A stretch of 64,000 bases of DNA from a virus. Below, in pieces: positions 43,956 to 59,230 of the stretch. Below the pieces are notes generated by a model that had not been told where the DNA came from, ran no database searches, and worked only from the letters and a program-made list of their open reading frames with translations. Each line of letters begins with the position of its first letter. Within the stretch, counting starts at the first letter, position 1. Location of the stretch: positions 1 through 64,000 of the IMG/VR virus record IMGVR_UViG_3300043429_000255; one strand, written 5' to 3'. A program made the position numbers and the translations under genes.

Positions 43956-46900
43956 TTAATTGATTGTAAATAAGTCTGTCTTAACTCCAGAAAGAACATT
44001 ATATTTGTATCTACCAGCACGTAGAATAGTTTTATCGTCAATGCCTACTCTTGATGTTCCCATGTATGTTTTGTATATTCCAGATGGATCTACACCATAG
44101 AAACTTGACGATGCAAGGACTAGAACCTCAAACCACTTAAACTGTCCTTCCCAGTATTCCCAGTCAAGGGTGAGGAATCCATCTTCTTTAACCTTTTGCC
44201 ACTGTCTTGCTGAGGTAGTTTGTACCTGCTGTAGGTTTACAGAGTTATAGTGTGATAGATTTGTTACTGTTAGAGGACCAGTAATTCTAATTGCCCCTCC
44301 AACCACCGAAAAGTCAATAAAATTAGCAAGACCAATGCCAATTGAAGACCACTGCTTAATTGTCATAATTCCGTCTTTTACCAACTTGCCATTTATATAG
44401 AATCCAATTCCATTTTCAACCTGTCCAGTTTTAACATTTACTGCATAAATCTTTGCTCTTTTGCCTTCTGGGTGAGCAGCCTCCATATATAGCTTAATAT
44501 GTCCAGAAGCTGACTCTATCTCTAAAATCTCTGTTGGAGAATATGGGAAAAAGTCATCCTCAAACTTAGCAAAGAACTGTACGGCAATCATCTTATACTT
44601 AGGAGATTTTTCAAGATTAATAGGAATTTCGATACCTCGGCTTCCATAAGTTGAAAAGTCTCCTCTTACACGAATACCGCTGTTTTTATTTAAGTATAGA
44701 TATGGACTGCTGCCCTTATAAATACTAAATGGATTTTTTGCCTTAAAGTCATAGTAATATCCATTCTTGGTAAATGGATAAACATCCGTACCAAACTTAG
44801 TTCCGATAGGTGTTCCATATGAATTATTCAATGATATTGATGCTAGCTGTAGCTTATCTATTGCTATTGGCTTGTCTGATATGCCATCTACTGTTGCAAA
44901 AATTTCAACAAACATCACTGTCTGAGAAAAATCAATTCCTGTTGGTGGGTAGATGATCATGTCATCTACAACCTCATATTTGGTATTTACCCATTCATCT
45001 CCTGGGGAAACTATTCCATCTTTTGGCGGAGAGATTGTTTCTGAATAGTAATTTTCTGAGTTACCCATTCCAGAAGAGATATCTTTAAAATATACATAGG
45101 TTTTAACTAGGGCATTAGATGTATCGTATCTATAGCTTTGCCTAGCATTATATTGCAGATCTGTATAGTCTACGTACCCTGTGTAAAGACCATTATCTAG
45201 ATCACTATACCTTTTTTGGGTAGGGCTTGAGAACTTTAGATTAAGTTCTTGATATGTCCAAGACTCATCTCTTTCTGTTACCCTAACAAAACTTCCTGGA
45301 GAAGGATATCCAACATTTAGCTGTATAAAGTCCAGGTCATAGTAGCTGTCACCTCTATCATTCTTTACGTACTTTCCAAAATAAGACATTGGGACAGATG
45401 TCGTCCATGACGAATAGGCATAAACATCGAGGGCTAGTGTGTTTGGCTTTTCAACAATTTTTAGAGAATAGCTAGTGTATATGTTTTCTATAATGCCAGA
45501 GTTTCCATATTGCAATGCCAGACCACCGTCAAATGATGACTCCCAAGAAGTTATGTCTGCATCCCCTCCATCAACAATTCCATTTGCAACCAATTCTTCG
45601 TAGGTCCAAGAAGCATCTACATATTCTAGTTTTGTTAGCTTTGCTGGTAGGATGTATCCAGCTGCTTCTGATTGGTTTACAGGTGTTGATCCATAGAGAA
45701 GTCCGTTATCGGCAAAGTACTTTGTGACTTTGCTAAATGCAAAGGTATTTAAGAAAGATATGTCATAGATGTTTCCACTGAAAGTTTCTTTATCTGGACC
45801 ACCAGCTACAAAAAATTCTAGGGAATCTTTATTCGATAAAAAGTTTGACAAAGTATTGCCAAAATACATAGACATCTTATCAAAAGCAAATCCCACAGAA
45901 AAGCTTTCTCCTGTTCCTGGATATGTACCAGCTGCCAACGTTATGACTTGTCCATAATTATTAATTGAGTACCAAATGATTCCTGGAGTAATGAATACTT
46001 CTAGATAGTTTCCAGATACGCTATCTTTTATTAGAAATAGGGTTTGGTTCTCAAAGTTGTTATCCGTTACTTTAAAAACTCCATAGATAGCCTCTAGCTT
46101 ACTGTTAAGCGGATTTAGGCTTTCAAAATAGATGCTTGAGTCTGATGGTAAAGACAAGAAATTCCTATCTTCATTTTGCAAAGAAAGATTATCTGACAAG
46201 ATCTCTTCTTGAGTGCTTGTCTCGGATATGATGGTTGGAGTAGCGTATTTTGGAATAGCTAGTCTATTCCCAGAAATCTCCATGTTATTATTTGAGCCAT
46301 CCTCCCAGCTACCAGTTTTTGGATAGCTATACCCATTTCCATATTTTGAAAATTCGTAGTCAAAGTATATACTCTTTCCACCAAAAGCTGTATTTAGTGC
46401 CTCTGGATTATCGACTGCCTGCCCGTACACCCATCTACGTTTAGCTATAATGTTTGATATTAAGTATGAATATATTGAAACAGAATTAATCTCAAATGGG
46501 CTAGTTTCATCATATGAATAGAAACCTAGCCAGTCTGCTTCCTCCCCATCTATTATTCTTTCTGGAAAAGATAGGGTGGATCGATCTACAGAAATGTTTG
46601 CTACAGACTCTCCGTTTACCAAAAGAGATATTTCTTGTTCCGATATTACGATATGAATAGCCATTGGTCTAGACCACTCCCCAACAAAATGAGAGGCAGA
46701 ATGTTCTCCAACTTTTAGTCTAAGAAATGGCCCGTCTATGTATAAACCATCCTCTGATGCAACTGGCCCAAAGATTCTTTTTTCAGAAGTAGTTGATGAG
46801 TTAATCCTCATCCAGAACTCTAGGCTATAGTTTTTGTTTTGGCCAGACTTGTTTAAGAACCCAAGTCCAGGAATAAGTATTGACGGGAGATCTGTATTTG

Positions 46901-47693
46901 GATATATTGTGGTTGACGAGTCTGACCCATACACTAGAGGCATTCCAAAATTTCTTGCAAAAAGTCTAGAATCGTTTGCCAAGATGTATCCATCTTCTGT
47001 GGACTCGACGGATCCCAGTATTCTTATTGCTTTGGTATTAGATGGGATTCCATAAATTATATCTGATAGTGGTTCTGGTATTACCCCCATTGACGTTGAA
47101 GAAAATTCTTCAGACCACTGTCCAAGAGAATATCCAGATACAAAAATGGTAAATGGGTCTAAGGCTTGATTAGACAGATACTCTATCTCAATAAAAAGAT
47201 TGTAGTCTTCGTCTAAGCCTGGAGGAATATCGAAAGTCTCCGATAGCATCATCCACTTATTGTTTAAAACTCTTGAAAACTTTTTAATTATGTCATATGA
47301 TCCATATGTTTGATCTGTATAAGACATTCCAAGTGATACAGACATCAAGGATCCGCTAGAAACGTTTACAAAGGACGAGATAGAGAATGTTGCAAGTGTG
47401 TCATCTAGATCTATTAAAGAGCCTATTACTTCTCCAGATAATCTAAACTTTACTATTGTGTCTGGATCAGATGGTGTGTCAGTTACACTAAAAACTTTTT
47501 CACCAGAAATTGGACTGGTTAGTTCTGAGCTTTCTTCAATGACTATAGTTTCTAGATCTGATGACCAAAGAGAAATGTCTCTTCCTTCTGCCCCAAGAAT
47601 AGAAACGTAGTCAGCTTGGTCATCTAAAGCCCAAACAGCCAGTGGATGTTCGCTAAGAATCTTTGTTGTATATAAACTAAGAGGAGTAGACAT
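43956..47693 (-). CDS. large LamG-type appendage protein
   Basis: The 1,245-residue protein is rich in beta-strands and aromatic residues. LamG/concanavalin-like segments are visible near 290-380 (YSLEFWMRINSSTTSEKRIFG ... HIVISEQEISLLVNGESVANISV) and again near 1060-1150 (PKYKMIAVQFFAKFEDDFF). Such domains bind glycans or surface proteins, fitting receptor binding or capsid/tail decoration. It is coded just upstream of the portal operon, apart from the tail tip genes. Confidence 0.68.
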   Translation of the reverse strand: MSTPLSLYTTKILSEHPLAVWALDDQADYVSILGAEGRDISLWSSDLETIVIEESSELTSPISGEKVFSVTDTPSDPDTIVKFRLSGEVIGSLIDLDDTLATFSISSFVNVSSGSLMSVSLGMSYTDQTYGSYDIIKKFSRVLNNKWMMLSETFDIPPGLDEDYNLFIEIEYLSNQALDPFTIFVSGYSLGQWSEEFSSTSMGVIPEPLSDIIYGIPSNTKAIRILGSVESTEDGYILANDSRLFARNFGMPLVYGSDSSTTIYPNTDLPSILIPGLGFLNKSGQNKNYSLEFWMRINSSTTSEKRIFGPVASEDGLYIDGPFLRLKVGEHSASHFVGEWSRPMAIHIVISEQEISLLVNGESVANISVDRSTLSFPERIIDGEEADWLGFYSYDETSPFEINSVSIYSYLISNIIAKRRWVYGQAVDNPEALNTAFGGKSIYFDYEFSKYGNGYSYPKTGSWEDGSNNNMEISGNRLAIPKYATPTIISETSTQEEILSDNLSLQNEDRNFLSLPSDSSIYFESLNPLNSKLEAIYGVFKVTDNNFENQTLFLIKDSVSGNYLEVFITPGIIWYSINNYGQVITLAAGTYPGTGESFSVGFAFDKMSMYFGNTLSNFLSNKDSLEFFVAGGPDKETFSGNIYDISFLNTFAFSKVTKYFADNGLLYGSTPVNQSEAAGYILPAKLTKLEYVDASWTYEELVANGIVDGGDADITSWESSFDGGLALQYGNSGIIENIYTSYSLKIVEKPNTLALDVYAYSSWTTSVPMSYFGKYVKNDRGDSYYDLDFIQLNVGYPSPGSFVRVTERDESWTYQELNLKFSSPTQKRYSDLDNGLYTGYVDYTDLQYNARQSYRYDTSNALVKTYVYFKDISSGMGNSENYYSETISPPKDGIVSPGDEWVNTKYEVVDDMIIYPPTGIDFSQTVMFVEIFATVDGISDKPIAIDKLQLASISLNNSYGTPIGTKFGTDVYPFTKNGYYYDFKAKNPFSIYKGSSPYLYLNKNSGIRVRGDFSTYGSRGIEIPINLEKSPKYKMIAVQFFAKFEDDFFPYSPTEILEIESASGHIKLYMEAAHPEGKRAKIYAVNVKTGQVENGIGFYINGKLVKDGIMTIKQWSSIGIGLANFIDFSVVGGAIRITGPLTVTNLSHYNSVNLQQVQTTSARQWQKVKEDGFLTLDWEYWEGQFKWFEVLVLASSSFYGVDPSGIYKTYMGTSRVGIDDKTILRAGRYKYNVLSGVKTDLFTIN

Positions 47694-47702
47694 TATATGT
47701 CT

Positions 47703-47711
47703 ATTTTATCA
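47703..47711 (-). promoter_or_regulatory. extended -10 promoter TGaTAAAAT
   Basis: On the minus strand it ends nine bases before the ATG at 47693. No ribosome site is seen in the short leader. Confidence 0.5.
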
Positions 47712-48230
47712 TACTATACGGGTAAACCAGCGAGGGGTTGTATATCTTATCCCAGAAATAATAGGCCTTACCCCATGCACAAAATTTGGGTTATCTGGAA
47801 ACGTAAGAAGGTCTCCAGGCTCAGGCTTTATAGAGATGTCGTATTCTGGGAAGTAAATTTCTCCGCCTTCATAGTCATCATTTAGATAAATCAGTGTTGC
47901 TATATCGTTTGGTCTACTTGAGTCAAAGTGCTCGTGCATGCCCTGGCCACTAGAGAATCTAGCTATATGTGTAGTATTTTCTTCAAATGGTTCGAATGGT
48001 CCAGGATAAGCCTGTATTACAAAATCATAAACTTTTTTGGAATAGTCATTTATTATACCTACTATTTCTGAATCATTTTTCCTTATCTCACTGTGTGTGT
48101 GTACAGTAAATTCTTTTTCGTTATTACCAAAATCAGTGAATATAAAGTCGTGCTGTTTTGCATATTCTGCTACTCTATTAGCTGTATCTTTGTCAATAAA
48201 TGATTTTTTGTAATTAATTAGATCTCTCAC
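47709..48230 (-). CDS. 2OG-Fe(II) oxygenase with complete motif
   Basis: The 173-residue protein has H101-x-D103 (HEHFDSSR), H152 (VHGVRPI) and the 2-oxoglutarate-binding R162 (RYTTPRW). The stretch YLNDDYEGGEIYFPEYDISIKPEPGDLLTF is the classic prolyl-4-hydroxylase-like core. It should be an active hydroxylase; the substrate is unknown. It is last of a four-gene oxygenase run between fibre genes. Confidence 0.87.
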   Translation of the reverse strand: MRDLINYKKSFIDKDTANRVAEYAKQHDFIFTDFGNNEKEFTVHTHSEIRKNDSEIVGIINDYSKKVYDFVIQAYPGPFEPFEENTTHIARFSSGQGMHEHFDSSRPNDIATLIYLNDDYEGGEIYFPEYDISIKPEPGDLLTFPDNPNFVHGVRPIISGIRYTTPRWFTRIV

Positions 48231-48832
48231 TAGAACCCCTTAATCTCCCAGTCTTCCCAGTTAATGTCTTCATAGGCAGTTTTGCTTGGCATAAAAAGTT
48301 GACCTTTTATTCCCATCCATGCTTCAGAAATCACAAGATTTCCGCTATCAACTTTTGTTATTCCATGAGAATTCTCTTCATTTTCTATAAAGTAAATTAA
48401 GTCTCCTGGTGACATAACAACTTCTTGAGATATATTTGGAAATACAAGTTTTCCACCAGTATAATCTTTTGTCCAACATATATAAGACTTATATGTTTTT
48501 TCTGGCTTGCTGTTGTCCCAATGAATTGCCGAATGACTACCTGCTTTATATCTAGCTAAATAATGTTTGGAAAACATTGGTGGGTGATAGTCCTCTGGCT
48601 CAATTTGACTAACCAAGTCAAAAAGTCCTTTAGAGTATTTAGAAAATATGTCTAAGATATGCCTTGGCATTTCTCCACGTGTATGGATATCAAACTCTGT
48701 TGATCCATGGCTAAACAGGTCATCATGTAGTGGCACATGGTCATCCTTGGTATTAAATTTAATTGAGTCTATGTACTCAGACACGATCTTAACATCGTTA
48801 TCGTTTATAAAACTTTTAAAAACATGTATCAT
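48230..48832 (-). CDS. 2OG-Fe(II) oxygenase-like, altered co-substrate arginine
   Basis: The 200-residue paralog of the next gene has H104-x-D106 (AIHWDNSK) and H156 (NSHGITKV). The usual arginine is not where expected (NLVISEAWMG), so co-substrate binding may differ. The core CWTKDYTGGKLVFPNISQEVVMSPGDLIYF is clear. It shares one base with the following start (48230). Confidence 0.8.
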   Translation of the reverse strand: MIHVFKSFINDNDVKIVSEYIDSIKFNTKDDHVPLHDDLFSHGSTEFDIHTRGEMPRHILDIFSKYSKGLFDLVSQIEPEDYHPPMFSKHYLARYKAGSHSAIHWDNSKPEKTYKSYICWTKDYTGGKLVFPNISQEVVMSPGDLIYFIENEENSHGITKVDSGNLVISEAWMGIKGQLFMPSKTAYEDINWEDWEIKGF

Positions 48833-48999
48833 TACTGAAACCTGCTATCGTTAGGATTGTGTTTTGGCAAATTTGATGCACCACACTTAACGCAGGTAAG
48901 CTCTACTATCCCAGTAACTGGGCACTTATTTCCACGCAAGACCTCATGTCCAAGAAAACTGCATGTTTTTGCTTTTACCCATCGTTTAAAGTTTGACAA
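48832..48999 (-). CDS. 55-residue zinc-ribbon protein, TTG start
   Basis: I start at TTG 48999, which follows AGGAG by six bases; the longer frame to 49038 lies inside the previous gene. Cysteines C-SFLGH-, CPVTG and CVKC-G form a zinc ribbon like those of small phage proteins that start KxCxxxGH. It lies within the oxygenase run, overlapping the previous gene by 14 bases and the next by one. Function unknown. Confidence 0.65.
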   Translation of the reverse strand: MSNFKRWVKAKTCSFLGHEVLRGNKCPVTGIVELTCVKCGASNLPKHNPNDSRFQ

Positions 49000-49636
49000 A
49001 ATTATCTCCTCTATTTGGATCAAATGGAAGAATATCATATGCTATTGTAATTCTTGGCCTTTCTGAATCCCAGTCTCCTCGTGAGTGAGGGTGTCCAGTT
49101 TCAGAAACTATCGCTCTATTGTTTTTATTGACATTTTCAAACATGCTGCTTGGGTCTTTGTAAAGCTGATAATGTGTCACTGAAGGTTCTGCGTCTATAC
49201 AGTAGTACCCATGAAAATCTGGAATACCTTCCCCATTATTGTGATCATGAAGATTTTTCACGCTATACTTGTGAAAACCATAGTCATAATTAAACCACGC
49301 CATAACCTGGTAGTTTTGAGTATTGAAATCTATGCCATAGTATTCACAGGCTTCAATAGTCATTTCTCTTAATGCTTTCTGCAATTTTTTAAATGGCTCG
49401 TAGTTATCTTTTAGAAGGTTATACTTGCTAAGTAGCTGAGTCGAGGCACCATTATATCTGGTCCATGGCTCTATGTTAGAGTTATTCCAGCCAGGACTTC
49501 CAACTGCAGGTGCAGTTTTATCTATCTCAAACACTTTGCCGTCAAGAATGTCGTCTAGCTTTTTATCTAGATATAACTTTATATCTTCAAGATCATTGTC
49601 CAACATCCTGTCAAAAAATTTGTGTGGTTTTGTCAT
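48986..49636 (-). CDS. probable Fe(II)/2OG oxygenase-like protein, paralog A
   Basis: The 216-residue protein has likely metal ligands H130 and H132 (NLHDHNNGEGIPDFHGYY) and H182/H184 (ETGHPHSRGDWD), plus R195 in RPRITIAYD. The distance and beta-core fit the oxygenase or cupin superfamily. The same layout is found in the tandem neighbour at 49643-50314, so the two come from a duplication. Which residues bind the metal is unproven. Confidence 0.6.
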   Translation of the reverse strand: MTKPHKFFDRMLDNDLEDIKLYLDKKLDDILDGKVFEIDKTAPAVGSPGWNNSNIEPWTRYNGASTQLLSKYNLLKDNYEPFKKLQKALREMTIEACEYYGIDFNTQNYQVMAWFNYDYGFHKYSVKNLHDHNNGEGIPDFHGYYCIDAEPSVTHYQLYKDPSSMFENVNKNNRAIVSETGHPHSRGDWDSERPRITIAYDILPFDPNRGDNFVKL

Positions 49637-49642
49637 CTTATC

Positions 49643-50314
49643 CTATGCTAGTGGTATCCAGTGCTGCTCTGCAACAATGCCTGCCTCTTGCAATCTCTTT
49701 AATGGACTAACGTCATAGGCTACAGTAATTCTTGGTCCGTCCCAATCCCAGTCTCCCATTGCGTGTGGGTGCCCCATTTCTGAAAGAATTGCACGATTAT
49801 TTTTATTAATGTTTTCTACATCTTTATCAAATACGATGTAGTGAGTTGAAGATGGCTCTGCAGAAACACAATAGTATCCATGGAAATCTGGAGCACCTGG
49901 ACCACCGTGTTCATGCCAATTCAATTTTCCATTCCCAGAATGATTGATATTAAACCATCCCTGGATCATAAACTTTTGCTCTTCAAAATCTATCTCGTAG
50001 TGTTCGCAGGCTTCTCTAACCATACTACCAATGGCCTTATAAAGTTCATAGATACCGTCGATGTGAAACTGAAAGACGTTGTACTGTCTCCACTTCATAG
50101 TAGAAACGCTATTTGAATCTTTCCAAAGCTCTAGTGGGCTTACTGGAGTTACTCCAGCTATTTTTGCTTGCTCGATTAGTGAATATCTCTCTTGCAGCTC
50201 TTGTGACAGTTTTATAAGGTCGTTGTCAAGGTATCTTTCAAAGAATTTGTGTCCTTGTGTTGACTTGCTAATGCTTCTTAGTACAGTTTGATCTCTATAC
50301 ACGTCATACTCCAT
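49643..50314 (-). CDS. probable Fe(II)/2OG oxygenase-like protein, paralog B
   Basis: The 223-residue protein shares with paralog A the segments HKFFxRxLDNDL, PDFHGYYCxxAEPSxTHY, NKNNRAIxSExGHPH and RITxAYD. Its first metal segment is NWHEHGGPG. It opens the oxygenase run. A TATAAT lies 18 bases before its ATG. The substrate is unknown. Confidence 0.6.
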   Translation of the reverse strand: MEYDVYRDQTVLRSISKSTQGHKFFERYLDNDLIKLSQELQERYSLIEQAKIAGVTPVSPLELWKDSNSVSTMKWRQYNVFQFHIDGIYELYKAIGSMVREACEHYEIDFEEQKFMIQGWFNINHSGNGKLNWHEHGGPGAPDFHGYYCVSAEPSSTHYIVFDKDVENINKNNRAILSEMGHPHAMGDWDWDGPRITVAYDVSPLKRLQEAGIVAEQHWIPLA

Positions 50315-50357: not shown

Positions 50358-51041
50358 CTACTGATTTCTAAAGAATCCAAATGGAGAGAAGCCAAATACA
50401 CCAAATGGTGAGAAGCCAAATACGCTGAATGGAACAAACGAAAATGTAGTAATGCTTCCAGAAGCTGCCGAAGCAGCAGATCTACCATTAGAGTTATCTG
50501 CATAAACCACATATGTCTGAGCACTTCCCTGCTCTTGAGTAATATTAATATTTAGAGACGAGGTGTTTCCAGTCTTACCATCTGAAGATACAACATAGTA
50601 GTTCGTAATTGCTTTTCCACCATTAGCAGGTGCAGTCCAAGACACAGTGTCGTAGTTTGCTCCATATGGAGATGATGCAATAACAGATGTTGGGGCACCT
50701 GGAACTGTTGTTGCAGTAATTGCAGATGTTGCAGAAGACGCTGGAGAGGTTCCATACGTATTAGTTGCAGTAACAGTAAAAGTATAGTTGGTAGCTGATT
50801 GCAACCCCTGCACGGTAAGTGGTGAAGATGCTCCAGTTGCTGTATATCCTCCAGGAGAAGATGTTACAGTGTAAGAAGTAGCTGCATTTGGACCCTGGTG
50901 GGTAAATGTAACTGTTGCTGCACCATCATTGTACGCCCTATTAGTTCCAACGTCAGTAGCTGTTCCGATTAGTGGAGCTGCTGGTGCTAGATAGTCATTT
51001 TGTGCAAGAGACTTCTTTCCAACTCTTTTATTTGCTGCCAT
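50358..51041 (-). CDS. two-FN3 appendage protein with FGFSPFG tail
   Basis: The 227-residue protein: residues 25-115 and 115-200 are fibronectin-III domains (GPNAATSYTVTSSPGGYTA; TVPGAPTSVIASSP). The C-terminal 30 residues are a Phe/Pro/Gly repeat (FVPFSVFGFSPFGVFGFSPFGFF). The same tail occurs in the PASTA protein at 57798-58118. FN3 domains help phages stick to cell walls; the aromatic tail may anchor the protein to the virion or enter a membrane. Confidence 0.72.
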   Translation of the reverse strand: MAANKRVGKKSLAQNDYLAPAAPLIGTATDVGTNRAYNDGAATVTFTHQGPNAATSYTVTSSPGGYTATGASSPLTVQGLQSATNYTFTVTATNTYGTSPASSATSAITATTVPGAPTSVIASSPYGANYDTVSWTAPANGGKAITNYYVVSSDGKTGNTSSLNINITQEQGSAQTYVVYADNSNGRSAASAASGSITTFSFVPFSVFGFSPFGVFGFSPFGFFRNQ

Positions 51042-51063
51042 TTAATTATTTCCCCTTCTAGGA

Positions 51064-52500
51064 TTAAGCTGATAGATCTCCGAAAACAACCCAAGTATCT
51101 GTTGCTCTCTTAAATAGTGTAGCAGATGACCACTGGGTACGTAGCTTTAGACCAGGGGTAGCGTTAACTGTAACTCCCCCTGCACCTGCAATAGTAACCT
51201 GACCAGCACCTGTCTGTAGGATATCAATAGATGTTCCTACTGGGTATGCAACTGAAGAGTTAGCTGGGATAGTAACTGTTACACCAGAGGATGATGATAC
51301 CTCTACCAGCTTGTCACGGTCTGTAAGGACTGTTGTGTAGCTAGATGTCTGCTGATTGATTGCTGTTAGAGATGGAACTCCCTGCTTAACCTGTACTCCG
51401 TCAGAGTACTCGATTCCGCCTACCTTTAGGGTATCGTAAACAGCCTGTGAGAAGTTAATTGTAGTTGTTGGCTCGTCCTCAACACTTGAGAATAGCTTCC
51501 AAACGCCATCGGTAGCATCACGAACAATACCTGCATGCTGGTATGAGCCATTGTTAAATGATGAGACAATACCAAGGTCTACAACGTTTGCATCATTTCC
51601 TTCACCAATGTAGATCAGTGGGTCAGTTACAACTAGGTCTGTTGCATTGACTGTGGTAGTTGTTCCACCAACAGTTAGATCTCCAGTAATGGAGATATCT
51701 GCGGCTGCTAGAGTACCAGTAAATGTTGGGTTGGCTGTAGGTGCCTTTGCATCTAGCTGAGTCTGAATATTTGAGGTTACTCCGTCAACATAGTTTAGCT
51801 CTGTTACAGAAAGTGTTGCTCCGTCAAGAATGTTTACTTCTGATGCTGATGCAGTTACATCGATAACGTCTGCTAGATTAATTGTTACAGTGTTATCTGC
51901 TGCAGAAATAGTCTTGTTAGTTAGAGTTTCTACTCCAGCCTTGGTTGCTAGTGCTGATGTGTCTGGGATACCGTGAACATTTGTGGTTTCTGAGTTGTGA
52001 TCAGATACTGCTGTAGTAACCTCTGTATCTGTAGCCAATGTTGAATCTGCAGAAATTGTAACCTCTCCAGTTTCTGAATCATATGATTTTGTTAGGCTGG
52101 TTCCTGCGATTACTTTGGTGCTGAGTGCAGTATTTATTTTGCCCTGAACAACACCATCAACATCTGTAATTGCGGATGCTAGCTCATTAAGAGTGTTTAA
52201 AGAATCTGGTGCACCAACAATAATATTAGAAAGCTGTGAAATTGGAATTTGAGAATCTCCATCTAGGGTAGCAACACCATTTGCAGCACCCTTTTGCGTA
52301 AGAGGCACATAGTCATCAAATGATCCAGCTAGATCTCCAAGGTCCTTAAAGTAAGACAGGTCTGACCAGTTGTTGGTTCCATCACCAATCTTAAAGAAGC
52401 CAGTGTCGGTTTCAAAACCGATTTCACCTGCTGCTAGAATTGGATCCGCTGAGGTCCATTGATCCGCAGTTCCTCTGCGTTGCTGCATTCTTGTTGCCAT
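51064..52500 (-). CDS. fibre protein with tropism-determinant-type N-terminus
   Basis: The 478-residue protein starts MATRMQQRRGTADQWTSADP ... GEIGFETDTGFFKIGDGTNNWSDL, a short repeat found at the N-terminus of many phage fibres and used for assembly. The middle is beta-rich and repetitive (VTELNYVDGVTSNIQTQLDAK; TNKTISAADNTV). The last 80 residues (PANSSVAYPVGTSIDILQTG ... VVFGDLSA) match the end of the protein at 58125-58772. The site TAGGAG lies before the ATG. Confidence 0.72.
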   Translation of the reverse strand: MATRMQQRRGTADQWTSADPILAAGEIGFETDTGFFKIGDGTNNWSDLSYFKDLGDLAGSFDDYVPLTQKGAANGVATLDGDSQIPISQLSNIIVGAPDSLNTLNELASAITDVDGVVQGKINTALSTKVIAGTSLTKSYDSETGEVTISADSTLATDTEVTTAVSDHNSETTNVHGIPDTSALATKAGVETLTNKTISAADNTVTINLADVIDVTASASEVNILDGATLSVTELNYVDGVTSNIQTQLDAKAPTANPTFTGTLAAADISITGDLTVGGTTTTVNATDLVVTDPLIYIGEGNDANVVDLGIVSSFNNGSYQHAGIVRDATDGVWKLFSSVEDEPTTTINFSQAVYDTLKVGGIEYSDGVQVKQGVPSLTAINQQTSSYTTVLTDRDKLVEVSSSSGVTVTIPANSSVAYPVGTSIDILQTGAGQVTIAGAGGVTVNATPGLKLRTQWSSATLFKRATDTWVVFGDLSA

Positions 52501-52543
52501 TTATTTACTCCTAAGTAGTGGGGTTACCCGTAAATCTATACTA

Positions 52544-52552
52544 ATTATAACA
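52544..52552 (-). promoter_or_regulatory. extended -10 promoter TGtTATAAT
   Basis: On the minus strand, 43 bases before the ATG at 52500; AGGAG is in the leader. Confidence 0.65.
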
Positions 52553-52558
52553 TTAGTT

Positions 52559-53017
52559 TTAGTTAAAATTGTCTATTGCAATTCCACCATCAAAGGTGTT
52601 TGCAAAGACTTCTGTGTCTGCTTGCCCTGCGTCCACAAAATTACCAGCACTGTCAAAATAACCTGCGTCGACAAACTGACTCACAATTAGTCCGTTGCCT
52701 CCAATAGATGTATCATGAATGTGCTGTTGCAGAGTTTCTGCGTCAGCAAGTGTTGCTATCGATATCCAGGCACCATCTGAATAAATTGCTAGCCTTTGTG
52801 TCGATGAGTCAAAATATAGCTGGCCATCTGTTGCAGAAATAGGGGCAGATGATTCAAACGGTACAATTGGTGATCCAGTTACCTGATCTACATACTCTTT
52901 AGTGGTAGCGTGGTTATTTTCTGTAGGAGTTCCTACAATAACTGCTCCACCGAAGCTACCTCCGTTTGCGACCAGTAGGCCATTTTTAACCTTGAAGTCT
53001 TTTTCAACTGTTGCCAT
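52559..53017 (-). CDS. small fibre protein with shared docking N-terminus
   Basis: The 152-residue protein begins MATVEKDFKVKNGLLVANGGSF, nearly the same as the start of the 563-residue fibre next to it. A segment VPFESSAPISATDGQLYFDSSTQRLAIYSDGAWISIATL, common in phage fibres, follows. The shared N-terminus probably docks both to the same virion site. Confidence 0.65.
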   Translation of the reverse strand: MATVEKDFKVKNGLLVANGGSFGGAVIVGTPTENNHATTKEYVDQVTGSPIVPFESSAPISATDGQLYFDSSTQRLAIYSDGAWISIATLADAETLQQHIHDTSIGGNGLIVSQFVDAGYFDSAGNFVDAGQADTEVFANTFDGGIAIDNFN

Positions 53018-53045
53018 CTGCTTCTCCTGTTTAAGTCTTTAGCGT

Positions 53046-53068
53046 GGGGGGTTTTTAAGGAACCCCCC
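53046..53068. other. 8-bp hairpin between fibre genes, no U tract
   Basis: GGGGGGTT/AACCCCCC with a 7-base loop. Neither strand has a following T run, so it may slow RNA decay or polymerase rather than terminate. Confidence 0.45.
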
Positions 53069-53084
53069 AAAACCTTTAATTCAA

Positions 53085-54776
53085 TTAAATAAGTAGTGTT
53101 CCAATAACAGTAACTGTGGAGTTATTGTTAGCAGTTGTTACTAATAGTCTTACATCTGTTCCCGAAATATCTGCAGAAATTGTTGATGCTGAACCATTGG
53201 TTCCAACAATTCCATACTCAGTTATTGCGATGTTGTCAGAAGTATCTAGGGTCAAAAGAACCTTAGAGATTTCTGTGTGAGTTCCGTAAGCAACCTTTAC
53301 CAAGAATTCTGCTGAACGGTAATCTGCCTTAGCAAATGCGTGTCCAACCTGAATTCCTGCTGTTGCTGCAGTGATCTGAGATGCTACCTGCTTAGCTACG
53401 TTATCGATAATAACTGCATTTGGGTAGATATCTGCGTTAGACACTGCATCAATTGCACGTTCATCTGTGAAGTAAAGGTTTTCTTCACCCTCAGTTAGGT
53501 CATCAGTTGTAGAATCTGCTACGCCGTTTTCTGCAGTAATGGTTAGGCCAGACTCATCTCCAGTAATTGTGATGTTTGCCAGGCTTGCTCCAGTTAGAAG
53601 TGAAGCTGCTGATGCCTTGGCACGAGTATCTGTGAAGTACTGTGCTGTGCCTTCTGCAACATCATCTGTATCTAGTGTTACTGTGTCACCAAGTGATGTT
53701 GAGTATCCATTAACTGTAATTGATGAGTTTGAAAGTGATGAGTTAGCAATGTTTGAAATGGTATTGCTTGAAGCATCAATTGTCTTGTTGGTTAGAGTCT
53801 GAGAATCAGAGGTTCCTACGATATCACCAGACACACCGTGAGCTGATGAAGCGTTTGTGTGGGTATCAAGGTTATCCTGAACATCGCTTGCAGAACCAGC
53901 TGCATCATAAGCTGATGAGGTTGCTGAAAGTGCTGCAGTATTGAAGTCTGAGATATCTGTTGAAGCAAGTCCAGTTACAGAGATTGTGTCAGCTGTAATG
54001 TCAATGTTTGATCCAGCAGTTAGAGTACCCTGCTTACCAGCCAACGCAGTTGTCATGGTAGTTGCATAGTTCTCGTCATCATTAATTGCTGCTGCAAGCT
54101 CATTCAGAGTATCTAGAAGACCTGGGGCACCGTCAACAAGGTTGTCCACTGCAGTGTTTACGTATGACTCTGTTGCATAGCCAGATAGGTCTGCTGACTT
54201 TAGGTAACCATAGCCGCCAACTGCTGAATCAAGTCCAGATGTTGGAGTATAGTCTTCTAATGCTGTGTCTGTGTAGCTATTTGCATTGTTTTCTGCTGTA
54301 GTTGCGTAACCCTGTGCAGTTGTTAGTGCAGTTGTAATTTCACCATCTGTATAGGTTGCAGCTGACGCAACTGCATCGGTTTCAGCAGTGTCTGCATAAG
54401 TTTGGTAAGCAGATGTGATAGCTGTTTCACGACCATCTGTGTAAGAATTAGCAGAAGTTTCTGCTGCATCCGCATATCCCTGTGCAGTTGTTAGTGCTGT
54501 GGTGATTTCACCGTCTGTGTAAAGATTTGCGGCAGCTTCGGCTGCGGCTGCAGCACCATCTGCATCAAAAACACCAGACTTAATGTTTAGCTCACCAGAA
54601 ACAACCTCCATCTGAGTTGATTCAACTGAGGTGATTAGTGTTTCTCCACCGATCAAGTCGAGGATGTAAGCATCACCAGCTCCTTCTGTAAGGATCGCCT
54701 GGTTATTAATAGTACCTGTGGTACCTTCTACGACTAGACCACTTTTGATCTTAAAGTCTTTATTTACTGTTGCCAT
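53085..54776 (-). CDS. repeat-containing long fibre protein
   Basis: The 563-residue protein starts MATVNKDFKIKSGLVVEG, the docking segment shared with 52559-53017. Residues 75-200 hold repeats of the type TDGEITTALTTAQGYA separated by SANSYTDG units, likely a trimeric coiled coil. Further beta-repeats (SLTNKTIDASSNTISNI) and a C-terminal head (about 480-563) related to the 148-residue protein downstream follow. The site AGGAG precedes the ATG. Confidence 0.7.
   Translation of the reverse strand: MATVNKDFKIKSGLVVEGTTGTINNQAILTEGAGDAYILDLIGGETLITSVESTQMEVVSGELNIKSGVFDADGAAAAAEAAANLYTDGEITTALTTAQGYADAAETSANSYTDGRETAITSAYQTYADTAETDAVASAATYTDGEITTALTTAQGYATTAENNANSYTDTALEDYTPTSGLDSAVGGYGYLKSADLSGYATESYVNTAVDNLVDGAPGLLDTLNELAAAINDDENYATTMTTALAGKQGTLTAGSNIDITADTISVTGLASTDISDFNTAALSATSSAYDAAGSASDVQDNLDTHTNASSAHGVSGDIVGTSDSQTLTNKTIDASSNTISNIANSSLSNSSITVNGYSTSLGDTVTLDTDDVAEGTAQYFTDTRAKASAASLLTGASLANITITGDESGLTITAENGVADSTTDDLTEGEENLYFTDERAIDAVSNADIYPNAVIIDNVAKQVASQITAATAGIQVGHAFAKADYRSAEFLVKVAYGTHTEISKVLLTLDTSDNIAITEYGIVGTNGSASTISADISGTDVRLLVTTANNNSTVTVIGTLLI
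54311..54525. repeat. direct repeat, about 47 bp, 168 bp apart
   Basis: The stretch from 54311 recurs from 54479 with few changes and codes for TDGEITTALTTAQGYA. The 168-bp period equals 56 codons, so it is an in-frame module duplication. Confidence 0.7.
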
Positions 54777-54795
54777 TGTTATCTCCTAGGGGTAA

Positions 54796-55242
54796 TTAGG
54801 CCTTGAGACCAATGCGAGCAAATCGCACGGTAACAGGTCTGATGTTTGAATCTGGGGTAACTGTTAAAGCCACAGTATTTCCAGATCTAGAGACGCTAAC
54901 GGTGCCAATATTCCCATCATTGTCTATTGTTCCATACTCAGAAACATTTACATCTGTTCCATCTACAAGTATGGTAAGTTCGGTTGCGTAGAACAGGTTA
55001 TCTCCATTAGATGTCTTTGAAATAGACACTAGGTACTTAACCATACGCCATACAGTTGCGTCGAATGAATCAACTACTGTCGGGTTCTCAATTCCAGAAA
55101 TAGTATTTTCGTTATTGCCGAAAGTTCCTAAGTCAGTTGACTGAGCGGAGGTAGTATCGATTAGATCTACATAATCCTGTTCTTCAGGACGGTCACCAGT
55201 TTGAAATCTGGTTTTTACATAGGGGATGGTTGTTCTAGACAT
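54796..55242 (-). CDS. small appendage protein
   Basis: The 148-residue protein has a C-terminal domain (60-148, ...VDGTDVNVSEYGTIDNDGNIGTVSVSRSGNTVALTV) that resembles the end of the neighbouring 563-residue fibre (LDTSDNIAITEYGIVGTNG). It probably belongs to the same head or fibre structure. A TATAAT ends six bases before the ATG, so leaderless translation is likely. Confidence 0.62.
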   Translation of the reverse strand: MSRTTIPYVKTRFQTGDRPEEQDYVDLIDTTSAQSTDLGTFGNNENTISGIENPTVVDSFDATVWRMVKYLVSISKTSNGDNLFYATELTILVDGTDVNVSEYGTIDNDGNIGTVSVSRSGNTVALTVTPDSNIRPVTVRFARIGLKA

Positions 55243-55248
55243 ACCTCA

Positions 55249-55254
55249 ATTATA
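55249..55254 (-). promoter_or_regulatory. -10 box TATAAT, leaderless spacing
   Basis: On the minus strand it ends six bases before the ATG at 55242; the spacer TGAGGT lies too close to the ATG to work as a ribosome site. Confidence 0.55.
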
Positions 55255-55276
55255 ATGCCATTTATGAATACTAAGA

Positions 55277-55501
55277 TTACATCACATAGTTGCTAATGCC
55301 AATGACAGCAATGCCGATTGGAGCTGCACTACCCTGGCCATATCCAGATATGCCAATATTTGTGAACTTAATTTTAAAAGGAAGTGTTTGGTTTATCTTT
55401 ACATGGCCAGAACTATATTTAACTTTAGATGTAAAAAAGTTAGAGTTTTTAATATATCTAACAGAACGCTTTGTTTTATCTACGATTACTGACTTTGCCA
55501 T
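55277..55501 (-). CDS. small basic hypothetical virion protein
   Basis: The 74-residue protein is Lys/Ser/Ile-rich and beta-like (HVKINQTLPFKIKFTNIGISGYG). Its start shares a base with the preceding stop at 55501. Function unknown; probably a small structural part, by place. Confidence 0.55.
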   Translation of the reverse strand: MAKSVIVDKTKRSVRYIKNSNFFTSKVKYSSGHVKINQTLPFKIKFTNIGISGYGQGSAAPIGIAVIGISNYVM

Positions 55502-55893
55502 TAGTCTGTTACGTCTTCCAGGATAACCATTTTACCCTGGGCTACTGTCCAAACAGTTCCAACCTGAGAAACCTGAATGTCAAAAATATCTCCAGTTTCT
55601 AGAATCTCGGACTCTTCGGCTGTTAAAGAAACTGTGAATTCTCCATTTGCATCATCTGCATCTGGGCCTGGGGTAAGTGTTAGGATCAAGGTTGCGTCGT
55701 CAGTAATAACTCCAAGATTTTTTGCAAGATTTGGACGCTTAATCTTCATTGCAATATCCCAATCTGCAATGGTAAGAGCTGTCTTTGTGTCATCTGTAAG
55801 GTAAACCCTAAATGCAGCAGTATCTCCACGCACAACTGTCCAAACAACTTGTGGTGGAATGTTTCCAACTGAATAACTATTTCCTCTTGCCAT
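55501..55893 (-). CDS. BppU-like N-terminal-domain protein A
   Basis: The 130-residue protein has the VVWTVVRGDTAAFRVYLTDDTKTALTIADW pattern of the baseplate upper protein N-terminal domain (strand, GDT turn, strand). The C-terminal half is beta-rich. Two relatives are present at 59826-60197 and 61775-62167. It probably clips fibres to the virion. Its promoter is spaced for a leaderless mRNA. Confidence 0.65.
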   Translation of the reverse strand: MARGNSYSVGNIPPQVVWTVVRGDTAAFRVYLTDDTKTALTIADWDIAMKIKRPNLAKNLGVITDDATLILTLTPGPDADDANGEFTVSLTAEESEILETGDIFDIQVSQVGTVWTVAQGKMVILEDVTD

Positions 55894-55899
55894 CTTATT

Positions 55900-55908
55900 A
55901 TTATACCA
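55900..55908 (-). promoter_or_regulatory. extended -10 promoter TGgTATAAT, leaderless spacing
   Basis: On the minus strand it ends six bases before the ATG at 55893; the expected -35 position reads AAGCTG. Confidence 0.7.
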
Positions 55909-55911
55909 CCC

Positions 55912-56421
55912 TTAAGCTAGACCAGCTTTGAGTGCCCCCCAGGTTCCATCGCCTCTTGTTCCAACCATAATGGAGCCGTCAACTGCAGAGTGGATAACTG
56001 TTGCGACTGCAACACCTGTGGTAGAAGACGATGCATTTACAAGCCCACCAGACTCTCCAATGAACAAAGTATCTCCGTTACTAAAGGATGATGTATTAAT
56101 TGAATTAATTATCCCTGCAACAACAACTACACCAACAGCGTTATTATTTGTAGATGCCCTGATTAGTCCAAGAGTAGGGTTTGTTGTATTTCCAGTTGAT
56201 GGAGAAACAGTGACATTTGTTCCATCGTGCCCAGTTACATAAACTGCAGATCCTGCAGGAATTGTTGATCCAGATGTATTTTTTGCTGGAAGGTCTACAT
56301 ATGAAGCTTGTGGAAGAACCACATCAAGCCTGTCTGCAAGTTTTTTTATATCTCCATGAACGTTAACAACGTCTCCAGATAGTGGAAACGGTATTTGATA
56401 GATATTGGTTGCATCAGCCAT
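55912..56421 (-). CDS. beta-rich virion protein
   Basis: The 169-residue protein starts MADATNIYQIPFPLSGDVVNVHGDIKKLADRL, then a beta-rich Gly/Thr/Val domain (STIPAGSAVYVTGHDGTNVTV ... NGDTLFIGESGGLV), a pattern often seen in phage capsid decorations and fibre bases. It has a leaderless-type promoter shared back to back with the lysis promoter. Confidence 0.6.
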   Translation of the reverse strand: MADATNIYQIPFPLSGDVVNVHGDIKKLADRLDVVLPQASYVDLPAKNTSGSTIPAGSAVYVTGHDGTNVTVSPSTGNTTNPTLGLIRASTNNNAVGVVVVAGIINSINTSSFSNGDTLFIGESGGLVNASSSTTGVAVATVIHSAVDGSIMVGTRGDGTWGALKAGLA

Positions 56422-56428
56422 ATATTAA

Positions 56429-56437
56429 ATTATATCA
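56429..56437 (-). promoter_or_regulatory. extended -10 promoter TGaTATAAT, leaderless spacing
   Basis: On the minus strand it ends seven bases before the ATG at 56421, divergent from the plus-strand lysis promoter 28 bases away. Confidence 0.7.
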
Positions 56438-56464
56438 GACTGTTTCCCTAAATTGGCTAAAAAG

Positions 56465-56473
56465 TGGTATAAT
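56465..56473 (+). promoter_or_regulatory. extended -10 promoter TGgTATAAT for the lysis cassette
   Basis: On the plus strand; predicted first base near 56480, directly at the hairpin 56482-56501. Confidence 0.7.
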
Positions 56474-56481
56474 TGATGTCT

Positions 56482-56504
56482 AACTTCTGTAAAAGGAAGT
56501 TTTT
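56482..56504 (+). promoter_or_regulatory. 5-prime stem-loop/attenuator-like hairpin
   Basis: AACTTC/GAAGTT stem with an 8-base loop, then TTTT, at the very start of the predicted lysis mRNA. It may stabilise the RNA end or end some transcripts early. Confidence 0.45.
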
Positions 56505-56520
56505 GTTCTAAGGAGGACAA

Positions 56521-56598
56521 ATGATTAAACAAAGTGACAACAATGTTGAAATCGTAACTAACTCTCAACAACAGACATTTTTATTGCTATCGCACTAA
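56521..56598 (+). CDS. 25-residue leader ORF before the lysin
   Basis: The frame MIKQSDNNVEIVTNS... ends in LLLSH, with a near-perfect ribosome site AAGGAGG five bases upstream. It lies between the lysis promoter and the lysin gene (67 bases to its ATG). It could be a real microprotein or a leader whose translation controls the lysin; no known motif. Confidence 0.5.
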   Translation: MIKQSDNNVEIVTNSQQQTFLLLSH

Positions 56599-56665
56599 TA
56601 AAAATATTGTCGCCAAGACCGTGACAGGGTCGTAACAACGAAAAGAATAAAAAGGAGGTAGCAAA

Positions 56666-57421
56666 ATGAATAAAAAATTTGCTGCAATTGGTACCATACT
56701 GCTATTTACAACTAGTTCTGGGGCTGCATTTGCTAAAATGTCAGATCCGTATATTACAAAATCTGAGCAGTCTAAAATAACAGAAGTAAGAAAACCAGAA
56801 CAAATAATAAACCCCACTGTGACAATAAAATACTCTCCAATGGTTGGACCAGTGAAAGCTTCTAATCTTTCCAGCGGTCCTGTGCTAAAAAATGCAGATC
56901 CAGAGCCTGGGTCTATGGAGTGGATGGCTCAAGAAAAGGCTGAAAAAGATAGATTACAGTCTGACGCTGCTACTAAGCAAGAGCAGCTTGAGGCTGAAAT
57001 TGCTAGGCTAGAGCGTGTTGCTAAAGACACCAAAGAGCTTAATCGAGCAGTATCTCTAGTAAAAAAGCAAGTTGGTAAAACTTGGTATGCCTTTAGTGGA
57101 TCTACCCCAGATGGTTGGGACTGCTCTGGCCTCGTCCTTTGGATGTATGGACAAATAGGATATACGCTAGAGCACCGTGCTTCTATTCAGAAGAACTCTG
57201 GTGAACTAGTCAAAGAACCAAAAATTGGAGACATCGTAGCTTTTACCTACAGGGGCTCTAAGTCTGCATACCACGTAGGAATATATCTGGGACCTAATGA
57301 GATGATTCATGCTGGTGGCAGACGTGGAGAAAAAACAGAGATAGTTCCAATAAGCTCTTGGGCAAAGGGCAATGGAAATACAATAGTTACCTATACTCGT
57401 GTTATTGAAACTAACAACTAG
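56666..57421 (+). CDS. NlpC/P60 cell-wall hydrolase with signal peptide (lysin)
   Basis: The 251-residue protein: residues 1-23 are a signal peptide (MNKKFAAIGTILLF...AAFA); 90-130 a coiled coil; 135-250 an NlpC/P60 domain with C153 (GWDCSGLVLW), H203 (AYHVGIYLG) and H215 (MIHAGG). It cuts peptidoglycan peptide bonds. The Sec signal means export without a hole-forming holin, like secreted or signal-arrest endolysins. The plan also matches actinobacterial RipA-type enzymes, so host origin is possible. GGAGG precedes the ATG. Confidence 0.88.
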   Translation: MNKKFAAIGTILLFTTSSGAAFAKMSDPYITKSEQSKITEVRKPEQIINPTVTIKYSPMVGPVKASNLSSGPVLKNADPEPGSMEWMAQEKAEKDRLQSDAATKQEQLEAEIARLERVAKDTKELNRAVSLVKKQVGKTWYAFSGSTPDGWDCSGLVLWMYGQIGYTLEHRASIQKNSGELVKEPKIGDIVAFTYRGSKSAYHVGIYLGPNEMIHAGGRRGEKTEIVPISSWAKGNGNTIVTYTRVIETNN

Positions 57422-57427
57422 CCTATA

Positions 57428-57456
57428 TTGATTTTGATAGTAAAACAGAGTATAAT
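57428..57456 (+). promoter_or_regulatory. promoter TTGATT-N17-TATAAT for the holin candidate
   Basis: On the plus strand -35 TTGATT (57428-57433) and -10 TATAAT (57451-57456) with 17 bases between, seven bases after the lysin stop. The leader holds AAGGGA. Confidence 0.65.
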
Positions 57457-57482
57457 TTTATATAAACAAAGCAAGGGAAAAA

Positions 57483-57725
57483 ATGAAAAACATATACAAG
57501 AGCATTCTACTTTCCATTATTTTTGGAAATATAGTTTCTTTTACAGTAGTTGCATGGACTTTTCCATGGAATACTTACCTTATCGATCCAACCCCATATT
57601 ACATTGTTCAGGCAGAGGGGCTTGGGCTTCTGATTGCAGCCTGTATCTTTGCTTCTGAATGGATCAAATTTGCAGAAAAGCCAAAACTTTTTAAAATAAG
57701 ATCTAAGTTTAAAGTTAAAAAATAA
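57483..57725 (+). CDS. small membrane protein, holin candidate
   Basis: The 80-residue protein has two predicted membrane helices (about 7-26, ILLSIIFGNIVSFTVVAWTF, and 44-62, EGLGLLIAACIFASEWI) and a basic tail (KLFKIRSKFKVKK), the form of a class II holin. It follows the lysin on the same strand and ends at a strong terminator. Holin function is inferred from form and place. Confidence 0.68.
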   Translation: MKNIYKSILLSIIFGNIVSFTVVAWTFPWNTYLIDPTPYYIVQAEGLGLLIAACIFASEWIKFAEKPKLFKIRSKFKVKK

Positions 57726-57742
57726 CACCAAGATAAAAAGAT

Positions 57743-57773
57743 ACCCCCAGTTAAATCTGGGGGTTTTCTTTTA
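57743..57773. terminator. bidirectional terminator between convergent genes
   Basis: ACCCCCAG/CTGGGGGT stem with loop TTAAAT. On the plus strand TTTTCTTTT follows; on the minus strand ATCTTTTTATC follows. It ends both the lysis cassette and the PASTA-gene transcript. Confidence 0.92.
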
Positions 57774-57797
57774 TAAAAATGTTAAAGACAGTATTTT

Positions 57798-58118
57798 CTA
57801 ACCATTAAAGAAACCAAATGGCGAGAACCCAAATACTGTAAATGGAGAAAATCCAAATGGTGCGAAGGCAAAAACAGTATACTCTATGCTAACTGGAAGC
57901 TCATACGTGAACAAAGTACCAGAAGCTGGATCCTGAGATCTTACCTTATTATTATTTGAAGCTTCATTGTAGTCTGAGGTATTAAATGCTGTTTCGGTAC
58001 CAACAACAAACCCGTCAGTAACTATTTGCGTTTTTGCTACATCTCTATCTAGACCAACCAGATTAGAGACAGTTTTCATTCCTTTAGAGGATGACCAAAG
58101 ACCAAATGAACCAATCAT
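57798..58118 (-). CDS. PASTA-domain appendage protein with FGFSPFG tail
   Basis: The 106-residue protein: residues 18-85 fit one PASTA domain (VSNLVGLDRDVAKTQIVTDGF ... VRSQDPASGT), a fold that binds uncross-linked peptidoglycan. The last 25 residues are the Phe-rich tail (FAFAPFGFSPFTVFGFSPFGFF) shared with the FN3 protein at 50358-51041. It may grip the host wall at the tail tip. It is last in a fibre operon and convergent with the lysis genes. Confidence 0.74.
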   Translation of the reverse strand: MIGSFGLWSSSKGMKTVSNLVGLDRDVAKTQIVTDGFVVGTETAFNTSDYNEASNNNKVRSQDPASGTLFTYELPVSIEYTVFAFAPFGFSPFTVFGFSPFGFFNG

Positions 58119-58124
58119 TTTATC

Positions 58125-58772
58125 CTACGCAGTCAGGTCGCCTATAAGTAGCCACTCGTTAGTGCCAATCTTTGTTAGCACTGCTCCAGAATATCGAGCT
58201 GCAATCTTTCTATTTGAATTTTTGCTGTTAAGTGTTACGTTGCTATTGATTGGTGCAACAGAGACTGCCCCAGTGCCATATCTCAAAATTTCAATTTTCT
58301 GTCCAATCTTAAATGCTACAGAAGAATTTTCTGGGATATAAATAATAGAGTCAGTAGAGTCAGAGACTCTTAGACTATTTCCTGCATCACCGATCAGAAG
58401 TGTGTATGACCCTGCTGAAACAGTGGGTGACTTAAGAATTGCAGAGTCATTTGATGATCTCCATCTGGTGCCATCATAGAACTGAATATCATTAATGGTT
58501 GAGCCATCGGCATCTTGCCCAACAAAACAAACCAAACCTGTTACTGGAGATGTAATTGCAGCGTCACGGGCGGATGGTGTGGCAAAGTTATTTATACCAG
58601 CCTTATTTTTTACAACTGTTTCAAATGTTACTGATGAATCAGAGCTGAATGTGTGATCTCCAGACCAAGTATAATCTGCACTAGGGCTAGCTACTCCAGA
58701 GATTGGTCTCCAGTTTGTACCGTCAAAAATATATGCAACCTTAGATTGCGAGCTTACTGGGTATGTTGTCAT
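58125..58772 (-). CDS. fibre protein with shared C-terminal domain
   Basis: The 215-residue protein starts at the ATG overlapping the preceding TAA (TAATG). The last 80 residues (PENSSVAFKIGQKIEILRYG ... WLLIGDLTA) match the end of the 478-residue fibre at 51064-52500. The N-terminal part has VAYIFDGTNWRPISG and DGTRWRSSNDSA, short fibre repeats. Confidence 0.66.
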   Translation of the reverse strand: MTTYPVSSQSKVAYIFDGTNWRPISGVASPSADYTWSGDHTFSSDSSVTFETVVKNKAGINNFATPSARDAAITSPVTGLVCFVGQDADGSTINDIQFYDGTRWRSSNDSAILKSPTVSAGSYTLLIGDAGNSLRVSDSTDSIIYIPENSSVAFKIGQKIEILRYGTGAVSVAPINSNVTLNSKNSNRKIAARYSGAVLTKIGTNEWLLIGDLTA

Positions 58773-59230
58773 TATGCACCAATTTCTTTCCAAGTAGTTG
58801 TATCTAAATCATAGACATACATCTTTAGTGGTGATGAATTTTTATCTACCCACAATAGGCCGTCAACTAGATCGGTTACTGGAGCAGAGTTTTGATAAAT
58901 TGTTGCCTGAACCAATGGTACAGTAGCAGTTGCATCACTTGGCATCCAGATATATCCATCTGCTGGATCCTCTGGCTCTGTGCCATAAGATGACCCAATT
59001 CCCAAAGACTCTAGTAAGTTAATCTCGTCTTGCATAACCTTTAGATATCTAGCAAGAGACGGGTTTGGTAAGTTATTAATAGCACCAGATGCTGCTGGGT
59101 CAAATGAGGTCGATCCATATAGGAATAGCTTTAGAGCAGCCTGAATATCGGCTGCATCGTCATAGCCAGGAACTTTTGTATTGTATACACCAGTACCATT
59201 TAGGGTACCGTCAATATTCTGTGCAGTCAT
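58772..59230 (-). CDS. small fibre-associated protein
   Basis: The 152-residue protein has a helical part (ADIQAALKLFLYG, ARYLKVMQDEINLLESLGI) and a C-terminal VDGLLWVDKNSSPLKMYVYDLDTTTWKEIGA segment common in fibre bases. It has its own promoter (59247-59255) and AAGGTG ribosome site. Confidence 0.6.
   Translation of the reverse strand: MTAQNIDGTLNGTGVYNTKVPGYDDAADIQAALKLFLYGSTSFDPAASGAINNLPNPSLARYLKVMQDEINLLESLGIGSSYGTEPEDPADGYIWMPSDATATVPLVQATIYQNSAPVTDLVDGLLWVDKNSSPLKMYVYDLDTTTWKEIGA

Follow-up and report, generated by a model that had tools for sequence, protein, structure and literature searches.

Two proteins encoded in a 64,000-nucleotide stretch of viral DNA (positions 1 to 64,000 of IMG/VR record IMGVR_UViG_3300043429_000255; hereafter the window) carry the same C-terminal Phe-Pro-Gly repeat on unrelated heads, two FN3 domains in one protein and one PASTA-like domain in the other. 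This tail is a real, widespread, unnamed and virus-restricted C-terminal module. The genes belong to a two-gene cassette, a tail-fibre gene and then the gene of a small accessory protein, of which the window holds two copies.

The aromatic tract and its cassette

The FN3 protein (50358–51041, minus strand; 227 residues) is composed of an N-terminal dock-like segment, two FN3 domains and a C-terminal aromatic tract, as delineated with Pfam and AlphaFold2. The tract, FSFVPFSVFGFSPFGVFGFSPFGFFRNQ (50361–50444, minus strand), opens with the conserved start T-F-x-F-x-P-F, and the C-terminal end of the protein reads TTFSFVPFSVFGFSPFGVFGFSPFGFFRNQ. In the PASTA-like protein (57798–58118, minus strand; 106 residues), the tract is FAFAPFGFSPFTVFGFSPFGFFNG (57801–57872, minus strand) and the C-terminal end YTVFAFAPFGFSPFTVFGFSPFGFFNG. 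Phe accounts for 11 and 10 of the last 28 residues of the FN3 and PASTA proteins, respectively, and for 4 in the third-ranked of the 60 window proteins. The two tails align with a score of 97, whereas 2000 composition-preserving shuffles average 36 and do not exceed 62. Within the common VFGFSPFGFF core, 3 of 10 codons differ between the two genes, all 3 synonymously. Phe counts, shuffle test and synonymous changes confirm the presence of one tail on two unlike proteins, as had been noticed in a preliminary description of the window. The tails had also been said there to finish in GFF; this motif is present in both, but RNQ or NG comes after it.

The assignment of the heads is clear for FN3 (PF00041, 40.5 bits against a gathering score of 25), and the best Foldseek matches of this protein are tandem FN3 structures. 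The PASTA-like head (57915–58073, minus strand) matches PF03793 with an E-value of 9.9e-5 and 22.7 bits, slightly below the cut-off of 23.2, while a relative with the same PASTA-tract architecture (L069) reaches 31.1 bits, above it. Wall binding by these FN3 and PASTA heads is plausible. In the AlphaFold2 model of the FN3 protein, the predicted local distance difference test (pLDDT) is mostly above 90 across the two FN3 domains and below 50 at residues 206–227; the tract is predicted to be unfolded in AlphaFold2 models. The N-terminal segment of the FN3 protein, MAANKRVGKKSLAQNDYLAPAAP (50973–51041, minus strand), is conserved in the alignment. Over 13 aligned sequences, K5, G8, S11, N15, D16, L18, P20, and P23 are near-invariant in this N-terminus, which contains a single short helix (residues 11–16) without Trp and is also recognisable by eye in proteins with the FFPP dialect of the repeat.

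A pattern scan of IMG/VR viral contigs yielded at least 120 matches, and among the matches listed about 100 distinct viral genes contain at least two FxFxP[FYW] units. In 84,980 bacterial and archaeal genomes the same pattern has 37 matches, mostly single chance occurrences that we rejected as tracts. A genuine tract was found only in L158, a 3.2-kb contig of a metagenome-assembled genome that has the same fibre domain upstream and looks viral. The heads of the tract genes comprise FN3 pairs, PASTA, LamG-like and unclassified types, which bears out the expectation of a modular tail that related phages carry on heads of different kinds.

The sequence rules of the tract are strict. Over 104 tracts, the composition is 40% Phe, 17% Pro, and 15% Gly, with 4 charged residues in 4285, and successive Phe residues are 2 or 3 positions apart in 1575 of 1613 cases. 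The repeat number varies freely among relatives. Repeats of one gene differ from each other mainly at the third codon position (0.433 differences per site, against 0.115 at the first and 0.073 at the second), a bias indicating selection on the protein pattern as opposed to a fresh expansion of the DNA. The preliminary description would have been overturned by tails missing from relatives or by unconserved drift; instead, the tail occurs in many relatives and carries this bias.

No Pfam or PHROG model covers the tract, and a literature search on the repeat, on Hint domains on tail fibres and on Phe-rich phage repeats returned nothing on the module. Its matches among PDB sequences are coronavirus spike fragments, which we judged to be compositional and spurious. 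Tblastn searches of a phage collection with the window FN3 and PASTA proteins and several relatives retrieved no tract-bearing named phage, and weak partial matches at most. The earlier statement that no named domain has this repeat thus stands with respect to Pfam, PHROG, PDB sequences and the literature.

Both tract genes lie directly behind a tail-fibre gene. The fibre protein upstream of the FN3 protein (51064–52500, minus strand; gap of 22 nucleotides) has an Mtd_N-like N-terminus (PF18454, 3.5e-13) and matches tail PHROGs, and its C-terminal domain (51067–51378, minus strand; phrog_8780 and alignment) is common to the fibre upstream of the PASTA-tail gene. This second fibre (58125–58793, minus strand; phrog_8780 and phrog_21510) is separated from its tract gene by 6 nucleotides, and its copy of the domain (58128–58418, minus strand) is ~39% identical to the first in the alignment. 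The open reading frame (ORF) directly upstream of the tract gene encodes a homologous fibre C-terminal domain in 107 of the 120 listed matches, including both window genes. Conversely, a tract gene follows the fibre-domain ORF in 108 of 114 testable cases, at loci picked by their tract.

Because the first loci had been selected for the tract, the search was rerun from the fibre domain. At least 583 relatives of this domain are present in the scan, and the best 80 loci were analysed. The next gene carries an FxFxP tract in 60 of them, an FFPP-type tract in 12 and an FYN-type tract in 2; aromatic tracts of the FSVFGF, GAF or YFPP type make up the other dialects. Three loci depart from this: in two (L205 and L210) the downstream ORF reaches the contig end before any tract, and in one (L253) the frame chosen by the script is apparently wrong. 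Essentially every intact gene downstream of the fibre domain in these 80 loci therefore carries an aromatic tract of variable dialect. In this search, the median peak aromatic content is 0.52 for the downstream ORFs and 0.24 for other ORFs; aromatic density is the property common to all dialects.

The dialect can change completely behind a conserved fibre. In L185 and L193, the fibre domain is 88% and 83% identical to that of the window, yet the tract is of the Tyr/Asn dialect (FYNFYNYSN). In L129 and L115, fibre domain and tract are fused into one ORF. The conserved N-terminus of the FN3 type, the dialect switching and the fusions together suggest that the N-terminal part docks and that the tail is a fast-changing exposed end. 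In practical terms, the fibre domain and its next gene provide a marker for candidate tip proteins in hundreds of uncultured phage contigs.

Terminal Hint domains and paired tails

In 66 of 93 complete genes the tract is followed by more than 45 further residues, forming an extra domain or region. In many relatives a Hint domain comes behind the tract. One class of Hint domain (VHN) is defined by an invariant Cys and an intein-like F/G block ending in LVHN, with almost nothing beyond: the residue after the terminal Asn is mostly Lys, and then the stop codon. The last aromatic residue is located 0–6 residues ahead of Cys1 in 17 of 17 cases. A profile search with the Hint region found the bacterial intein-like (BIL) domain 2lwy at 3.7e-6, and also inteins. 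A Foldseek search with the predicted model of L085 gave BIL2 6y75 as the best match (8.2e-9), as well as 2lwy and hedgehog 1at0. From sequence and predicted structure, the VHN-class domain looks like a type A BIL domain, with which it shares the HINT fold (from the 2lwy profile match and from Foldseek on the predicted model), Cys1, the terminal His-Asn and the lack of a +1 nucleophile (PMC4031507, PMC7664689). According to the literature on this type, the N-terminus is expected to form a thioester, with cleavage dominating (PMC4031507, PMC7664689). What sets the relatives apart from type A BILs is the position of the domain, which forms the very C-terminus of phage fibre-associated proteins and is preceded by an aromatic tract.

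Some Hint members have Gln instead of the usual block B His, and in a larger class Ser replaces Cys1 and the end is His-Asp, so activity of the Hint domains is not to be assumed. A search for a Hint domain in the window gave no match, and the window proteins lie outside the type A BIL definition. The terminal Hint domain nevertheless raises a directly testable question, namely the autoprocessing of virion proteins. Long GAF repeats (~16 units) are observed between a Pro-Val-rich linker and a Hint-like domain in three further relatives (L094, L107, and L122).

Twelve non-redundant contigs with two tract genes each allow the two tails of one genome to be compared. The mean 5-mer cosine is 0.62 between tails of one contig and 0.32 across contigs, and none of 20,000 permutations reaches 0.62. 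The fibre domains of the two cassettes of one genome are 35–42% identical, against 71–91% between genomes for the same cassette. The likeness of the tails within a contig, despite divergent fibre domains, thus implies that tails are matched inside a genome. Presence or absence of the Hint domain is concordant between paired tract genes in 11 of 12 contigs, the exception (L123) being cut by the contig end. Both tails end in SPFSVFGFR in L019 and in GVFGFR in L014. For the four genomes nearest to the window, the final residues show the matching, but the cosine does not do so cleanly. The match could be accounted for by a common target, by mutual binding or by gene conversion.

A proposed role at the fibre tip

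Fibre-tip proteins determine which cells a phage can use, and to our knowledge the tip protein is unrecognised for most uncultured phages. The reading that we favour, at about even odds, is that the accessory proteins are fibre-tip caps that dock N-terminally and display a multivalent adhesive aromatic tail. In the mechanism that we infer, the accessory protein would cap the tip of the fibre encoded directly upstream, onto which it would dock through its N-terminal part, and the unstructured tract would be displayed outwards. Its regularly spaced Phe residues could then make many weak contacts with the host envelope, by stacking on wall sugars or by hydrophobic interaction. Binding would depend on aromatic density and spacing and not on one fold, which would allow the dialect to change quickly. 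A low-complexity aromatic binding surface whose dialects are swapped while the fibre stays would be an unusual way to diversify attachment. In relatives with Cys1 and a terminal His-Asn, cleavage at Cys1 would turn the tract into a new C-terminus, a state that the window proteins have from the outset.

Several points weigh against this proposal. In the collections searched we found no virion proteomics, no adsorption data and no tract-bearing cultured phage, and the adjacency of two genes does not prove physical contact. Disorder is weakly supported by low AlphaFold2 confidence where the sequence is of low complexity, and the tract itself showed no carbohydrate-binding signature. The same fibre domain is followed in Gordonia phage Wizard by a gene without an aromatic tract, so the tract is not obligatory for this fibre type. 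Moreover, the match of the tails within a genome fits self-association or a common partner equally well as a common receptor.

The main rival of the adhesin proposal is self-association, which we regard as a possible but distinctly less probable explanation. The aromatic tails would bind each other, as stickers, small condensates or cross-beta zippers, and so oligomerise the cap or cluster the FN3 and PASTA proteins on each virion. The even spacing of the aromatic residues and the near lack of charged ones speak for this, as do the greater likeness of tails within than between genomes over the 12 contigs and the matching last residues within L019 and within L014. However, gene conversion or shared ancestry within a genome would produce the same match, and among the four close genomes tails do not clearly match better within a genome than between genomes for the same cassette. 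The tail had also been suggested to be a shared virion anchor, which would agree with a cassette whose constants are the fibre domain and the aromatic tract while the heads vary. This now appears less likely, and indeed quite improbable, because the upstream fibre domain stays 83–88% identical while the tail switches completely from FxFxP to FYN. In addition, the tract is retained in the proteins where it forms a single chain with the fibre domain, and Wizard retains the fibre domain without a tract.

A membrane-active or membrane-inserting segment, the remaining role offered in the preliminary description, would suit uncharged tails and the very hydrophobic FSVFGF dialect (peak Kyte–Doolittle value of 2.02). 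Transmembrane segments are expected to have a 19-residue hydropathy of about 1.6 or more and few prolines. The window tails reach 1.48 and 1.25, the median peak is 0.95, the FYN dialect has −0.67, and 4 of 94 tracts attain 1.6, leaving 90 below the threshold; the next Pro lies at most 8 residues away in 634 of 654 gaps. Because of this low hydropathy, the frequent Pro and the Tyr/Asn dialects in place of Phe-rich ones, membrane insertion is unsupported as a general explanation and we hold it to be very unlikely. Drift, that is, a functionless expansion of the repeat by slippage, would account for the freely variable repeat number. It is refuted in the main by the third-position bias, by strict spacing over diverse phages and by the placement of the tract behind one fibre type, and we assign it a negligible probability.

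The fibre-tip proposal has a more far-reaching version, which we view as unlikely. The tail would represent a new class of fibre-tip module, a fast-switching aromatic 'sticker' whose density and spacing, not fold, bind, and which in many lineages is matured by a terminal BIL domain, the thioester perhaps being passed to an acceptor on the virion or on the surface of the host. If this were true, a tail exposed by the BIL domain as a new C-terminus, together with thioester transfer, would provide covalent attachment.

Genomic surroundings and known systems

The window covers most of the IMG/VR record of 65,979 bases, and the virus encodes a tape-measure protein, a capsid protein and a prohead protease. 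Its portal is 46–47% identical to that of Streptomyces phages such as Daubenski and Yaboi, and its fibre C-terminal domain shares 56% identity with the Gordonia phage domain; from these resemblances, an actinobacterial host is likely. Within the tail-fibre region, a putatively secreted NlpC/P60 hydrolase (56666–57421, plus strand) is encoded on the strand opposite to the surrounding genes. For a 1245-residue protein (43956–47693, minus strand), Pfam gives only weak matches, of carbohydrate-binding and LamG-like type, and PHROG none.

Immediately downstream of the FN3-tail gene lie four consecutive genes (47709–50314, minus strand). Of these, the first passes the Pfam cut-off for a 2-oxoglutarate (2OG)-Fe(II) oxygenase and the second falls slightly short of it, while the resemblance of the other two was judged by eye alone. 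Genes of this type (PF13640) are present in 33 of 39 tract contigs, and in 28 of these 33 one lies within 10 kb of the tract gene, against 17.8 expected. Since no excess is found within 5 kb (p 0.18), this proximity is explicable by a shared layout of the tail region. Prolyl hydroxylation of the Pro-rich tails by the adjoining oxygenases was accordingly set aside and is retained merely as a lead.

FG-nucleoporins and elastin-like repeats have regular Phe (or Pro-Gly) spacing, predicted disorder and the potential for weak multivalent contacts. The tract resembles them in behaviour only, namely in spacing, predicted disorder and multivalency. It is far denser in Phe, with one every 2–3 residues, lacks both the polar spacers that accompany FG/FxFG motifs in FG-nucleoporins and the VPGXG consensus, and occurs in a phage context.

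Gordonia phage Wizard (L261) has a parallel gene order: the fibre domain of the window recurs at the end of gp35 (56% identical), and directly behind gp35 comes a second minor tail protein, gp36. Unlike the window proteins, gp36 has no aromatic tract and, by eye, no FN3 or PASTA head. As a cultured phage with the same fibre domain, Wizard is a possible experimental system for the cassette.

In T-even-type phages, too, a fibre gene is followed by an adhesin gene. In the gp37–gp38 tip of phage S16, the small gp38 caps the tail fibre, determines host range and contains a low-complexity region of 10 glycine-rich motifs (PMC6851490). The likeness to the window cassette lies in an accessory gene directly downstream of the fibre gene, with capping as the presumed counterpart. 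The differences are considerable. The gp38 repeat has more than 50% Gly, against 40% Phe and 15% Gly in the tract, and its motifs form a polyglycine II sandwich, while the tract is unfolded in the model. The N-terminal helical bundle of gp38 plugs into gp37 with conserved Trp, and no such three-Trp helical attachment domain is seen here; the heads are FN3 or PASTA, and the fibre domain is a different one. Judged by sequence and model, the accessory proteins are not members of the T-even gp38 family, but by analogy they most likely work like gp38-type tip adhesins.

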